Below are positions 26,145 through 50,136 of a stretch of DNA of 52,496 nt, one piece after another. Numbering within the stretch: the stretch's first letter is position 1; each line of letters opens with the position of its first letter. Position numbers and translations under genes: made by a program. Source of the DNA: Burkholderiales bacterium (lineage in GTDB: Bacteria > Pseudomonadota > Gammaproteobacteria > Burkholderiales > Burkholderiaceae_C); the NCBI GenBank assembly GCA_028872015.1, contig JAGWLO010000018.1:1-52496 (forward strand), given 5' to 3'. The notes under the pieces were generated by a model that was not told the DNA's origin, made no database searches, and saw nothing but the letters and a program-made list of their open reading frames with translations.

Positions 26145-26413
26145 CGAAACGGGGGGGCTGGAGCGCCCGGAGTGCGCCCGGAGTCGACGCCCCGGCAATT
26201 ATCACATCGGCCCCGCGGGCATCGGCAGGCCGCCGGCGGCGGGCGCGGAGTTGGCATAATCGCGGGCTCGATCACGTTCTTTTGGGTCAGGAAGCCGACC
26301 GTCACACCCCGACGCCGGCCCTTCGACCGCGCAGGTACCGAATCCGCCTCACGAGGGCGCGCAAGAGGTGCACCGACGGATTTTCGTCAGAGAAATTCTC
26401 AGAGGTTCTTCGC

Positions 26414-28189
26414 ATGGAAACGACTGCCGCGGAAGTCAAGCGCGCCGCCCTGGCGCACGCTGCTTCCTCCCCCGCCAGCGACCCGAACGGGTCCGAAATC
26501 CTGGTCCGCTGCCTCCAGGCCGAAGGGGTCAAGTACCTCTGGGGCTATCCGGGTGGCGCGGTCCTCTACATCTACGACGCCCTGTACAAGCAGGACAGCA
26601 TCCAGCACGTGCTGGTGCGTCACGAGCAGGCCGCCGTGCACGCAGCCGACGGCTATGCCCGCGCCACGGGCGACGTCGGCGTGGCGCTGGTGACCTCGGG
26701 CCCCGGCGTGACGAACGCGATCACCGGCATCGCGACCGCCTACATGGATTCGATCCCGATGGTGATCATCACCGGGCAGGTGCCGACGCCGGCGATCGGC
26801 CTGGACGCGTTCCAGGAATGCGACACCGTGGGCATCACGCGGCCGATCGTGAAGCACAACTTCCTCGTCAAGGACGTGCGCGACCTGGCGCTGACGATGA
26901 AGAAGGCCTTCCACATCGCCCGCACGGGCCGGCCCGGGCCGGTGGTGGTCGACGTGCCCAAGGACGTCTCGCTGAAGACCGCGCCCTTCCACTATCCCGA
27001 GACGGTGGAGATGCGCTCGTACAACCCGGTGAAGAAGGGCCACGGCGGGCAGATCCGCAAGGCCGTGCAGCTGCTGCTGCAGGCGCGGCGGCCTTACATC
27101 TACACCGGCGGCGGTGTGATCCTGGGCAACGCCTCGGCCGAGCTGCGGGCGCTGGCCGACCTGCTCGGCTTCCCGTGCACCAACACGCTGATGGGCCTGG
27201 GCGCCACGGCGGCCTCGGACCCCAAGTTCCTGGGCATGCTGGGCATGCACGGGACCTACGAGGCCAACATGACGATGCAGAACTGCGACGTCCTGCTGGC
27301 CGTGGGGGCGCGCTTCGACGACCGCGTGATCGGCAACCCCAAGCACTTCGCCTCGGTCGAGCGCAAGATCATCCACATCGACATCGATCCCTCGTCGATC
27401 TCGAAGCGGGTGAAGGTCGACATCCCGATCGTCGGCGACGTGAAGGAGGTGCTGCTCGAGCTGACGGCGCAGATCCGCGAGGCCCAGGCGCGGCCCGACG
27501 CCGCGGCGCTGAACGCCTGGTGGGGCCAGATCAACGAGTGGCGCAAGCGCGAGTGCCTGGCCTACAAACCGAGCACCGAGGTGATCAAGCCGCAGATGGT
27601 GGTCGAGAAGCTCTGGCAGCTGACGAAGGATCGCGACGCGTACATCACCAGCGACGTCGGCCAGCACCAGATGTGGGCGGCCCAGTTCTACCGCTTCGAG
27701 CAGCCGCGGCGCTGGATCAACAGCGGCGGCCTGGGGACGATGGGCGTGGGCCTGCCGTACGCGATGGGCATCAAGCTGGCCAAGCCCGAGAGCGATGTCT
27801 TCTGCATCACCGGCGAGGGCTCGATCCAGATGTGCATCCAGGAGCTCAGCACCTGCCTGCAGTACAAGACGCCGGTCAAGATCGTCTCGCTGAACAACCG
27901 CTATCTCGGCATGGTGCGGCAGTGGCAGGAGCTCGACTACGAGGGCCGCTATTCGCACAGCTACATGGACGCGCTGCCCGACTTCGTCAAGCTCGCCGAG
28001 GCCTACGGCCATGTCGGGCTGAAGGTCGAGAAGCCCTCCGACGTCGAGGGCGCGTTGAAGGAGGCGATCCGCCTGAAGGACCGCACCGTCTTCCTCGACG
28101 TGCGCACCGATCCGACCGAAAACGTCTGGCCGATGGTGCAGGCGGGCAAGGGCATCTCCGAGATGCTGCTCGGCTCGGAAGACCTCTGA
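26414..28189 (+). CDS. ilvB: Acetolactate synthase, large catalytic subunit
   Basis: This 591-residue ThDP/FAD enzyme makes acetolactate or acetohydroxybutyrate, the first common step of Val, Leu and Ile synthesis. N-terminal [20 protein letters not shown] and the catalytic Glu in [19 protein letters not shown] are present, as is the ThDP motif [19 protein letters not shown] ending in SLNN. ATG 26414 has AGAGG 8 nt upstream. Candidate -10 CATAAT lies at 26255-26260. The regulatory subunit gene follows after 111 bp. It could equally be named ilvI; only one large subunit gene is in this window. Confidence 0.96.
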
Positions 28190-29861: not shown

Positions 29862-30695
29862 ATGAACGACGACTTGCGCGCCACGCCAGCCGACCGCGCG
29901 GAGCTGCACGACGCCCCGCGGCCGCGGCGCAAGGGCATCTACGTGCTGCCCAATGCCGTGACGCTGGCGGCACTGTTCGCCGGTTTCTACTCGATCGTGA
30001 TGGCCATGAACGCCCGCTTCGAGACGGCCGCGATCGCGATCTTCTGCGCCGCCGTGCTCGACAGCCTGGATGGGCGGATCGCGCGCATGACCAACTCGCA
30101 GAGCGCCTTCGGCGAGCAGATGGACAGCCTCTGCGACATGGTCAACTTCGGCGCCGCGCCAGCGCTCATCGTCTACGAGTGGGCGCTCAAGGGCCTGGGC
30201 AAGATGGGCTGGATCCCGGCCTTCGTCTACATCGCCGGCGCGGCACTGCGGCTGGCCCGCTTCAACACCAACATCGCCGTCGTCGACAAGCGCTTCTTCC
30301 AGGGCCTGCCCAGCCCGGCGGCGGCGGCGCTGGTGATGGGACTGATCTGGGTCATGGACGATGCCGGCTTCAAGGGCGTCTCGCACATCGAGTGGCTGTC
30401 GTGGGTGGCCTTCGGCGTCACGCTGTACGCGGGCCTGTCGATGGTGACCAACGCCCCCTTCTACAGCTTCAAGGTCGTCGGCGCCAAGCAGACCGTGCCT
30501 TTCGTCGTCATCGTCGCGATCGCGCTGGGCATCGTCCTCATCGGCCAGAACCCGCCGCTGGCCCTGTTCGGGCTGTTCTGTGCCTATGGCCTGTCGGGCT
30601 ACGGCGTGTACGCCTGGCGCAAGGCCAAGGGCCGGCCGACGAGCGTGATCGCGATCTCCACCGACGAGCCCGACGAGCAGGGGCTGCACCGGTGA
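29862..30695 (+). CDS. pssA: CDP-diacylglycerol-serine O-phosphatidyltransferase
   Basis: This 277-residue membrane enzyme makes phosphatidylserine, the precursor of phosphatidylethanolamine. The CDP-alcohol phosphotransferase motif D-G-x2-A-R-x8-G-x3-D-x3-D is exact (DGRIARMTNSQSAFGEQMDS, followed by LCD). It has multiple hydrophobic helices. The position between ilvC and leuA is common in betaproteobacteria. Start ATG 29862 is a short distance after the ilvC stop; translational coupling is possible but not shown. Confidence 0.95.
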   Translation: MNDDLRATPADRAELHDAPRPRRKGIYVLPNAVTLAALFAGFYSIVMAMNARFETAAIAIFCAAVLDSLDGRIARMTNSQSAFGEQMDSLCDMVNFGAAPALIVYEWALKGLGKMGWIPAFVYIAGAALRLARFNTNIAVVDKRFFQGLPSPAAAALVMGLIWVMDDAGFKGVSHIEWLSWVAFGVTLYAGLSMVTNAPFYSFKVVGAKQTVPFVVIVAIALGIVLIGQNPPLALFGLFCAYGLSGYGVYAWRKAKGRPTSVIAISTDEPDEQGLHR

Positions 30696-30712
30696 GGGCC
30701 AAGGTCGCGTGC

Positions 30713-30718
30713 TACATT
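30713..30718 (+). promoter_or_regulatory. Candidate -10 element directly before the leuA leader peptide
   Basis: TACATT ends 6 nt before the leader-peptide ATG at 30725. This would place transcription start at or near that ATG. No convincing -35 box is visible, so it may be only coincidence. Confidence 0.35.
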
Positions 30719-30724
30719 CCGAGC

Positions 30725-30796
30725 ATGGCGTCGATCGGTCAGCCCCTACTTTCCGCCCTGGCACTAGCCCGGCTAGGAGCCCTGCGGGTGCGCTGA
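30725..30796 (+). CDS. Leucine-rich leader peptide of leuA (attenuation control)
   Basis: This 23-codon frame starts MASIGQPLLSALAL and ends with TGA (30794-30796), 105 bp before leuA. Six of 23 residues are Leu, coded CTA, CTT, CTG, CTA, CTA and CTG. Three CTA codons are notable because leucine is otherwise almost always CTG or CTC here. A leader peptide rich in rare Leu codons just before a rho-independent terminator and leuA is the hallmark of attenuation by charged tRNA-Leu supply. No Shine-Dalgarno sequence is evident. Confidence 0.75.
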   Translation: MASIGQPLLSALALARLGALRVR

Positions 30797-30822
30797 TCGT
30801 CTTCGTCCCTTCTCCCGATCAA

Positions 30823-30860
30823 CGGCCCGCCAGCGCAATGCAGCGGGCCGCTTTTCTTTT
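30823..30860 (+). terminator. Attenuator (rho-independent terminator) upstream of leuA
   Basis: CGGCCCGC (30823-30830) and GCGGGCCG (30843-30850) form an exact 8-bp GC stem with a 12-nt loop, followed by CTTTTCTTTT (30851-30860). It lies after the leader-peptide stop and 41 bp before leuA. GCGGG at 30784-30788, inside the leader peptide, can pair with CCCGC at 30826-30830, which would break the terminator. That is the expected antiterminator. A further small stem TGATCG/CGATCA (30794-30799 with 30816-30821) lies between. Confidence 0.8.
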
Positions 30861-30901: not shown

Positions 30902-32443
30902 ATGTCCGACAAGCTCATCATCTTCGACACCACCTTGCGCGACGGCGAGCAGTCGCCCGGCGCCTCGATGACGCGCGAGGAGAAGCTGCGCATCGCGCGC
31001 CAGCTCGAGCGGCTGCGCGTGGACGTGATCGAGGCCGGCTTCGCGGCCTCGAGCCACGGCGACTTCGAGGCCGTCAAGGCGATCGCCGCGGCGGTGCGCG
31101 AGTCGGTCATCTGTTCGCTCTCGCGGGCGAACGACCGCGACATCGCCCGCTCGGCCGAGGCGCTGAAAGGCGCGGCACGGGCGCGCATCCACACCTTCAT
31201 CGCGACCTCGCCCCTGCACATGGAGAAGAAGCTGCGCATGACGCCGCAGCAGGTGCATGAGCAGGCCCGGCAGGCCGTGCGGTATGCACGCAATCTGTGC
31301 GGCGACATCGAGTTCTCGCCCGAGGACGGCTACCGCAGCGAGCCCGATTTCCTGTGCCGCGTGCTCGAGACCGTGATCGACGAGGGCGCCACGACGATCA
31401 ACATCCCCGACACCGTGGGCTACGCGATCCCCGAGCTCTATGGCCAGTTCATCCTCGATCTGCGCCGGCGCGTGCCCAACAGCGACAAGGCGGTGTGGAG
31501 CGTGCATTGCCACAACGACCTGGGCATGGCGGTGGCGAACTCGTTGGCGGGCGTGATGATCGGCGGCGCGCGCCAGATCGAGTGCACGATCAACGGCCTG
31601 GGCGAGCGCGCCGGCAACTGCTCGCTCGAAGAGGTCGTGATGGCGGTGCGCACGCGGCGCGACTACTTCAAGCTCGAGCTGGGCATCGACGCGACGCAGA
31701 TCGTGCCGGCGTCCCGCATGGTCAGCCAGACCACCGGTTTCGTCGTGCAGCCGAACAAGGCCGTGGTGGGCGCCAACGCCTTCGCCCATGCCAGTGGCAT
31801 CCACCAGGACGGCGTGCTGAAGGCGCGCGACACCTACGAAATCATGCGCGCCGAAGACGTGGGCTGGGCCACGAACAAGATCGTGCTGGGCAAGCTCAGC
31901 GGCCGCAACGCCTTCAAGCAGCGCCTGCAGGAGCTGGGCATCGACCTCGACAGCGAGGGCGAGATCAACGCGGCCTTCGCCCGCTTCAAGGACCTGGCCG
32001 ACCGCAAGAGCGAGATCTTCGACGAGGACATCATCGCGCTGGTCAGCGATGAAAGCGTGACGCCGGAGCACGAGCATTACCGGCTGCTCTCGCTGGCCCA
32101 GCATTCCGAGACCGGCGAGCGGCCGCAGGCCCGCGTGTCGTTCGCCGCCGGCGCGCTCGAGCACCAGGTCGAGAGCGATGGCAACGGGCCGGTGGACGCC
32201 AGCCTGAAGGCGATCGAGTCGCGAGTGAAAAGTGGCGCGGAAATGGTGCTCTACTCGGTGAGCGCCATCACCTCGGGCAGCACAGAATCTCAAGGCGAGG
32301 TGACCGTCCGCCTGCAGCATGGTGGACGGGTCGTCAACGGCGTCGGCGCCGACCCCGACATCGTCGTGGCATCGGCCAAAGCCTATCTCTCGGCGTTGAA
32401 CAAGTTGCACAGCAAGGCCGAACGGGTGGCCGCCCAGGGCTGA
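30902..32443 (+). CDS. leuA: 2-isopropylmalate synthase
   Basis: This 513-residue enzyme condenses acetyl-CoA and 2-oxoisovalerate, the first committed step of leucine synthesis. The catalytic N-terminus [20 protein letters not shown] and the metal and substrate segments ([56 protein letters not shown]) are present. The C-terminal regulatory domain for leucine feedback follows from about residue 390. It is preceded by a leader peptide and terminator, implying leucine-responsive attenuation. Confidence 0.97.
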
Positions 32444-37552: not shown

Positions 37553-37639
37553 GCGCGGGTGGCGAAATTGGTAGACGCACCAGGTTTAGGTCCTGACGCC
37601 TTCACCGGCGTGCCGGTTCGAGTCCGGCCCCGCGCACCA
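37553..37639 (+). tRNA. tRNA-Leu(UAG)
   Basis: An 87-nt class II tRNA with acceptor stem GCGCGGG (37553-37559) and CCCGCGC (37629-37635), discriminator A and encoded CCA (37637-37639). The anticodon loop TTTAGGT carries anticodon TAG, and GGTTCGAGTCC is the T-arm. The long variable arm fits leucine. This tRNA reads CTA, the rare codon used three times in the leuA leader peptide. Confidence 0.97.
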
Positions 37640-49997: not shown

Positions 49998-50130
49998 CCC
50001 GTCCCCTTGCGAATGCCCGTGATGACACGGGCGCAGCAAGGCGGGTCGCTAGTCCGCCAAACCGGTGCAGCCGGGGCCGCGGAAGGTTGATCAACCCATC
50101 GGAGTTCCGCAGACCGGAGCGAAAGGTGAG
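49998..50130 (+). ncRNA. Structured leader RNA upstream of sucA (sucA RNA motif-like)
   Basis: Nested exact stems are visible. CCTTGC (50005-50010) pairs with GCAAGG (50036-50041), enclosing GCCCGTG/CACGGGC (50015-50021 with 50026-50032). GGCGG/CCGCC (50040-50044 with 50054-50058) follows, slightly overlapping the first outer stem so that the two may compete. Then GCGGAA (50079-50084) pairs with TTCCGC (50105-50110) and encloses GGTT-GATC-AACC (50085-50096). A conserved sucA leader motif is known from Burkholderiales as a candidate metabolite-sensing RNA; the match is by context and layout, not by search. Confidence 0.65.
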
Positions 50131-50136
50131 CGAAAG

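Follow-up and report, generated by a model that had tools for sequence, protein, structure and literature searches.

Positions 30710–30860 of the 52,496-nucleotide stretch of Burkholderiales DNA that we analysed, here called the window, likely work as a ribosome-mediated leucine attenuator. The mRNA from which its leader peptide is translated would be leaderless, and to this combined reading we assign a probability of a little under 0.9. By nearly every sequence test the region behaves as a leucine attenuator, and the leader, with its predicted leaderless start, would be a new element. Leucine attenuation had been claimed in an earlier note on this DNA, and comparison with related loci supports that claim, through CTA enrichment, frame bias and the co-occurrence of the reading frame with a terminator. 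The note had overlooked a −10 box six bases before the ATG, as well as the breadth of the leader's distribution. The features discussed below are collected in Table 1.

Table 1. Features of the predicted attenuator and its surroundings, in window coordinates.
Feature	Position	Strand	Basis and remarks
pssA-like CDP-alcohol phosphatidyltransferase gene, upstream	29862..30695	+	Pfam CDP-OH_P_transf, E 6.6e-21
Extended −10 promoter-like box TGCTACATT	30710..30718	+	Box-to-start spacing, column profile; ends 6 nt before leader ATG
Leucine leader ORF MASIGQPLLSALALARLGALRVR*	30725..30796	+	Reading frame; CTA enrichment and in-frame bias over 75 leaders
CTA, leucine codon 8	30746..30748	+	Sequence
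CTA, leucine codon 14, predicted stall site	30764..30766	+	Sequence; modelled geometry
CTA, leucine codon 17	30773..30775	+	Sequence; a stall here with a 14-nt footprint would already mask part of the antiterminator
Predicted antiterminator 5′ strand (GCGGGU, CG, UGAUCG)	30784..30799	+	Predicted fold without terminator 3′ arm; overlaps last leader codons and stop
Predicted antiterminator 3′ strand (CGAUCA, CGGCCCGC)	30816..30830	+	Predicted fold, slid-column control; shares terminator 5′ arm
Terminator 5′ arm CGGCCCGC	30823..30830	+	Folding; pattern match
Terminator 3′ arm GCGGGCCG	30843..30850	+	Folding; terminator covariation
T-rich tail CTTTTCTTTT	30851..30860	+	Sequence
leuA, 2-isopropylmalate synthase, presumed regulated gene	30902..32443	+	Pfam HMGL-like and LeuA_dimer
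tRNA-Leu(UAG), decoder of CTA	37553..37639	+	Also downstream of leuA in 8 of 8 same-genus relatives

The leader frame and its conservation

The leader frame comprises 23 codons, from an ATG at 30725 to a TGA at 30794–30796, and includes six leucine codons (CTA 30746, CTT 30749, CTG 30758, CTA 30764, CTA 30773 and CTG 30782), so that the 23-codon peptide with six leucines, three of them encoded by CTA, is borne out by the sequence. Pfam likewise supports both neighbours between which this peptide had been placed, pssA and leuA. None of the 202 leucines in six adjoining genes of the window (ilvB, ilvH, ilvC, pssA, leuA and the next gene, named from reading of the sequence, with three checked) is encoded by CTA, and the occurrence of at least three CTA among six leucine codons has p ~4e-6 at the rate seen in the leuA genes of relatives (16/2802).

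The comparison was extended to 75 non-redundant leaders, picked by an extended TGNTANNNT box, a start codon 5–9 nt downstream and at least three leucine codons; because these features were used in the selection, box, spacing and leucine count are partly preset in this set, whereas CTA share and frame are not. CTA makes up 166 of the 354 leucine codons of these leaders, versus 16 of 2802 in leuA of the same loci (Fisher p 1e-154), and 166 of their 168 CTA triplets lie in frame (166/2/0 by frame). Every leader has at least one CTA and 68 of the 75 have at least two. Leucine amounts to 25% of leader residues versus 7% of LeuA, in a set for which at least three leucine codons had been required, and apart from its leucine codons the leader peptide is poorly conserved. 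Rare regulatory CUA codons and a short leucine-rich ORF before a leucine gene, by which an attenuator of the leuL kind is recognised, are both found here.

Conservation was followed in 113 close leuA loci, namely 33 from genomes of the window's family (L001–L030 and L137–L139) and 80, out of a larger number of matches, from named records with LeuA identities of 81–90% (L051–L130). Among the matches listed, the named records include Rubrivivax (MAGs), Ideonella, Piscinibacter, Methylibium, Rivibacter, Roseateles, Hydrogenophaga, Acidovorax, Limnohabitans, Polaromonas and Variovorax, and carriers of the leader include Rubrivivax, Methylibium, Rivibacter, Roseateles, Hydrogenophaga, Acidovorax, Limnohabitans and Polaromonas. 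By motif, 24 of the 113 loci have another LeuA-like gene directly 5′ of leuA, and reading of the sequence places such a gene in L090, L138 and L139 as well. A reading as cimA of the gene lying between pssA and leuA in some genomes was rejected; it is a LeuA-family paralog, with ~30% identity.

Eighty-nine loci were not flagged by the motif, of which 86 entered a test blind to the −10 box. These include two duplicate pairs and L075, which is cut inside the leader; L137–L139 were left out, and L137 has the leader with a box-to-start spacing of 7. The terminator motif was found in 81 of the 86 loci, and in 80 of them together with a CTA-containing frame ahead of it, the single miss being L126, whose contig ends inside the gap. 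The comparison of pssA–leuA gaps across relatives, as proposed in the earlier note, thus gives retention of both peptide and terminator in these 80 loci, and there is no clear instance, among the 86, of the case named there as a refutation, namely a terminator kept where the peptide frame has been lost. The strict terminator motif is absent from five loci. In L094 the leader is present and the hairpin has a variant stem, and L090 misses the strict motif in a paralog context; by eye, L080, L101 and L115 have neither leader nor terminator, though they keep a pssA-like gene before leuA. Where the paralog is present, a CTA leader and a terminator precede it in all five regions that reach that far (L131–L135, with spacings of 7, 7, 10, 7 and 7; L136 is too short), and the leader stands before both paralog and leuA.

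Promoter-like box and predicted start of the leader

In the same blind set of 80 loci, TGNTANNNT lies 6–7 nt before an in-frame ATG or GTG in 73 and 8–9 nt before it in three, relative to a background at random positions of 3.5% per in-frame slot. No box–start pair was found in L075, where the contig ends, nor in L089, L093 and L130, the last of which retains ORF and terminator. Spacing outliers are L016 with 9 nt and L133 with 10 nt. The window's own copy is the sole match to TGNTANNNT-N6-RTG in 52 kb (0.28 expected; one present in 24 of 100 shuffles). Beyond the TG and TA...T that the pattern requires, the hexamer favours A at position 4 (97%) and T at position 5 (85%). No −35 conservation was seen, since only the bases adjoining the box are conserved among the 34 positions 5′ of it.

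The leader also has no Shine-Dalgarno sequence: over the 75 leaders the median anti-Shine-Dalgarno duplex is +0.6 kcal/mol, versus −6.4 at leuA, and the values for the window itself are +0.6 at the leader and −3.9 kcal/mol at leuA. Transcription usually starts 6–7 nt after a −10 box. Both sequence marks of a leaderless mRNA, a −10-like box 6–7 nt before the start codon and the lack of a Shine-Dalgarno, are found at this leader, from which we predict that it is translated from a leaderless mRNA. Such mRNAs are documented, in the excerpts of the two papers that we draw on, in Burkholderia cenocepacia and Cupriavidus metallidurans (PMC4603805, PMC7563307), and this mode of translation is therefore available in Burkholderiales.

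Terminator, predicted antiterminator and rival readings

The leader ORF and leuA are separated by a predicted intrinsic terminator, an exact 8-bp stem with a 12-nt loop followed by CTTTTCTTTT; the exact GC stem and T-run described in the earlier note 3′ of the peptide are thus present, at 30823–30860. The window has a single match to the stem-loop pattern (0.00 expected), which is also the only one in the whole genome. A default terminator scan of the window, which accepts loops of 3–8 only, did not list this hairpin. In one alignment of 39 sequences the terminator columns are paired in 99.7% of cells, with 21 two-sided changes, and in another of 35 sequences (35 of 36, L029 having been left out) in 98.9% of cells, with 3 two-sided changes. 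Folding of the whole leader is only mildly unusual (z −1.81, with 8 of 200 shuffles folding as well), and we excluded it from the evidence.

Folding without the terminator 3′ arm predicts an antiterminator, in which GCGGGU-G-CG-C-UGAUCG (30784–30799) pairs with CGAUCA-A-CGGCCCGC (30816–30830). The pairing of GCGGG with the first terminator arm, as originally claimed, is possible at 30784–30788, and the predicted helix is longer. Its counterparts are paired in 97.0% of cells in one clade, versus 6–49% when the columns are slid, and in 83.5% in the other, versus 13–47%. Covariation of these columns within clades is not above that of shuffles, the pairs hardly varying inside a clade, and the consensus fold of the Comamonadaceae-type alignment has the terminator and another weak pairing, without picking the antiterminator. 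At least five leader-to-arm pairs form in 71 of 75 real folds, the four with fewer being L061, L069, L085 and L096, versus 41–57 of 75 in codon shuffles; base composition contributes to this count, as codon-shuffled leaders reach at least five pairs in 66% of cases. Of the 75 leaders, 64 contain a [CT]GGG able to match the terminator arm and 11 do not. Because this motif is found in all three reading frames (31/30/3, with one or two perhaps owed to chance, for example in L083), it seems to be kept as RNA and not as protein. The case for the predicted antiterminator rests on the slid controls, the retention across frames and the second family described below.

The position at which a ribosome would stall was explored with a geometry model in which the ribosome is assumed to cover 14 nt past its A site. 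In this model, 30784–30799 are free when CTA14 occupies the A site; with CTA17 there, the outer antiterminator helix is blocked and cannot form; and with the stop codon there, all of 30784–30799 is covered. A leader stalled at CTA14, in the absence of the terminator 3′ arm, is predicted to adopt the antiterminator fold, at −23.0 kcal/mol, and in an untranslated leader an upstream hairpin is predicted to sequester 30784–30799. For the complete RNA at equilibrium the terminator is preferred even with the CTA14 stall (P 0.98). Since the terminator wins at equilibrium once its 3′ arm is present, the switch must be kinetic.

We propose that RNA polymerase would start at or next to the ATG at 30725, and that a 70S ribosome would initiate on the resulting 5′-terminal AUG without a Shine-Dalgarno. 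With ample charged tRNA-Leu(UAG), the ribosome would reach the stop codon at 30794 and mask 30784–30799; the terminator at 30823–30850 would form, and leuA would consequently not be transcribed. Under leucine shortage, the ribosome would stall at the CTA codons, mainly at 30764 in our model, and the free segment 30784–30799 may then pair with 30816–30830 before the terminator 3′ arm is made. Once this antiterminator had formed, transcription would proceed into leuA.

Four other readings were weighed against this proposal. The same leucine attenuator might not be leaderless: its transcript could originate further 5′, within pssA or the ilv operon, and ribosomes could either initiate at the ATG with no Shine-Dalgarno or reach it through translational coupling to pssA. 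Transcripts that read through from pssA, whose stop at 30695 is 30 bases upstream of the ATG, would include the leader, and both the absence of −35 conservation and the persistence of ORF and terminator without the box in L130 speak for this origin. Nevertheless, 73 of the 80 loci keep the 6–7 nt between box and in-frame start, the leader has no Shine-Dalgarno, and the spacing is alike in other families, for which reasons we regard an upstream start as unlikely, though worth bearing in mind. Far harder to sustain is the notion that the hairpin simply ends ilvBHC-pssA transcripts, that the ORF is there by chance and that another promoter serves leuA. The hairpin does come after pssA, and the distance from T-run to leuA could fit a promoter, but CTA enrichment, frame bias and the co-occurrence of ORF and hairpin oppose this reading, as does the fact that L080, L101 and L115, which are without the leader, are also without the terminator; we consider it very improbable.

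The remaining two readings concern what the leader RNA does. Termination would release a small mRNA of ~135 nt, and it or the free peptide could also act in trans, an arrangement reported for trpL of Sinorhizobium meliloti (rnTrpL/peTrpL; PMC7298713, in excerpt). However, since the peptide is poorly conserved beyond its leucine codons and the frame of [CT]GGG differs between clades, a conserved function of the peptide is unlikely for leaders of the window's type, and we see only a small chance of action in trans. A T-box, that is, a tRNA-binding leader, or a metabolite-binding one might instead control leuA, with the ORF secondary. Nothing beyond the location before a biosynthetic gene favours this; in-frame CTA enrichment indicates translation, and no Rfam family scores at or above its gathering threshold in the leader region, where two weaker matches (E 0.17 and 3.3) lie far below it, which makes such a leader hardly credible. 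The ribosome-mediated attenuator with a leaderless start is retained as the preferred reading.

Described leaders and the wider order

The leucine leader of enteric bacteria, leuL, is led by a Shine-Dalgarno sequence. The enteric leuL of Salmonella and E. coli resembles the window in its short leader with leucine codons that include CUA, and in its terminator before leuA; it also has an antiterminator, for which the window has a predicted counterpart. The two differ in that the window has a −10 box six bases before the ATG, with no Shine-Dalgarno found, and in that its leuA follows pssA, whereas the enteric leuA heads leuABCD. This principle is classical for the leu operon of Salmonella, in which replacement of three CUA codons by CUG lowered sensitivity (Carter et al., as cited in an excerpt of PMC1183508). 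The isoacceptor-charging theory of regulatory codons (PMC1183508) could be put to a natural test by the use of CUA so far from the enterics.

Other described leaders, known to us from excerpts of the papers cited, share one or another of these traits. LeuL of Campylobacter jejuni, a 28-amino-acid leader before leuABCD with the rare leucine codons CUA, CUC and CUG (PMC3847290) and with Ribo-seq support (PMC11955535), is alike in placing rare leucine codons before leu genes, in a different bacterial class; since the search that identified it looked for ORFs preceded by a ribosome-binding site, it is not leaderless. The trpL attenuator RNA of S. meliloti begins at the ATG of its leader ORF (PMC7298713), and differs in that it responds to tryptophan instead of leucine and in that its 5′ end is stated as known, whereas ours is predicted from spacing. 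Mycobacteria, a genus with many leaderless mRNAs, have conserved, cysteine-rich small upstream ORFs with codons clustered for the amino acid of the downstream genes, whose regulatory role is termed speculative (PMC4633059); they and the window have small ORFs with cognate codon clusters, for cysteine there and leucine here. The LEU element of Actinobacteria is a leader ORF with a run of leucine codons before leuA, accompanied by a pseudoknot and by a stem in which the leucine codons pair with the leuA Shine-Dalgarno (PMC1262725). In the window the corresponding elements are an intrinsic terminator and, competing for the 5′ arm of its stem, a predicted antiterminator.

Upstream of branched-chain genes, putative leader peptides are stated to occur across various Gram-negative species (PMC6123439, in excerpt, citing Vitreschak et al. 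2004). Among the literature matches listed we found no Burkholderiales leucine leader, although the 2004 survey could hold a prior mention, and no report that combines leucine, a leaderless start and Burkholderiales. NCBIfam gave no match for the window's peptide and five other leader peptides. Our reading predicts how leucine synthesis is controlled in a large bacterial group without a described leu leader among those matches, and it would join attenuation and leaderless translation, two ideas mostly studied apart. If the leader begins at base 1, ribosome loading would be tied directly to the start of transcription, without any 5′ leader that could be tuned, and attenuation kinetics and the strength of leaderless initiation could then be measured in one small RNA.

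A similar box-to-start spacing is seen again in other families. The layout of the window returns in two members of a second family, L144 and L148: CTA codons, a TANNNT box that precedes the ATG by six bases, and a different terminator stem, GCCCCAGC/GCTGGGG, with a matching leader segment GGGGC; a third genome of this family, L146, has CTA codons and no apparent terminator. The order-wide set consisted of 121 non-redundant loci from 46 other families, obtained from 126 matching genomes of which five were left out (rows among L032–L048 and L140–L235). A TANNNT box 6–9 nt before an ATG, together with a leucine-rich ORF of 20–40 codons, was found in 62 of the 121 loci and 27 of the 46 families, a pattern that was partly selected for, by leucine count, an L-R near the end and a spacing of 5–9. 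These ORFs, which are likewise predicted to be leaderless, often end in LLLR(P/L/R)AR, with a C-rich stretch often 3′ of the stop.

The other-family leaders favour CTG (261 of 437 leucine codons, with CTA at 31), and a GC hairpin with T-run is present in only five of the 62; leaders of the window's type, judged by identical criteria, have one in 69 of 75. Their CTGCTGCGC...GCGCGC-stop end folds into a hairpin with a mean of −7.4 kcal/mol, versus −4.9 in codon shuffles. An alignment of leaders with this CTGCTGCGC...GCGCGC ending gave no supported consensus fold overall, and no Rfam model reached its gathering score in any of the 14 other-family (type B) loci searched. These leaders are possibly a separate class of leucine leader. 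It is tempting to speculate, at somewhat short of even odds, that one ancestral leaderless, leucine-sensing leader ORF stood before leuA across much of Burkholderiales, and that lineages swapped its output: an intrinsic terminator and CTA codons in the window's family and part of the second. In other lineages that output would be an RNA element of another kind, whose hairpin end CTG-CTG-CTG-CGC is conserved and which usually lacks a terminator. If so, this element would be a new class of leucine-responsive leader, and the order-wide set a test bed for an attenuator that changes its output while the sensor stays.

Further from the leader, the tRNA-Leu(UAG) that had been reported 7 kb away was found 6.7 kb after the leuA start. 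It lies downstream of leuA, on the same strand and 6.7–12.8 kb from its start, in all eight relatives scanned; because these belong to the same genus, synteny alone explains the linkage, which is probably all that it reflects. By eye, no leader was apparent before ilvB in 26150–26460. Elsewhere in the window, 50046–50132 match the Rfam sucA RNA motif with 57.3 bits, relative to a gathering score of 40.
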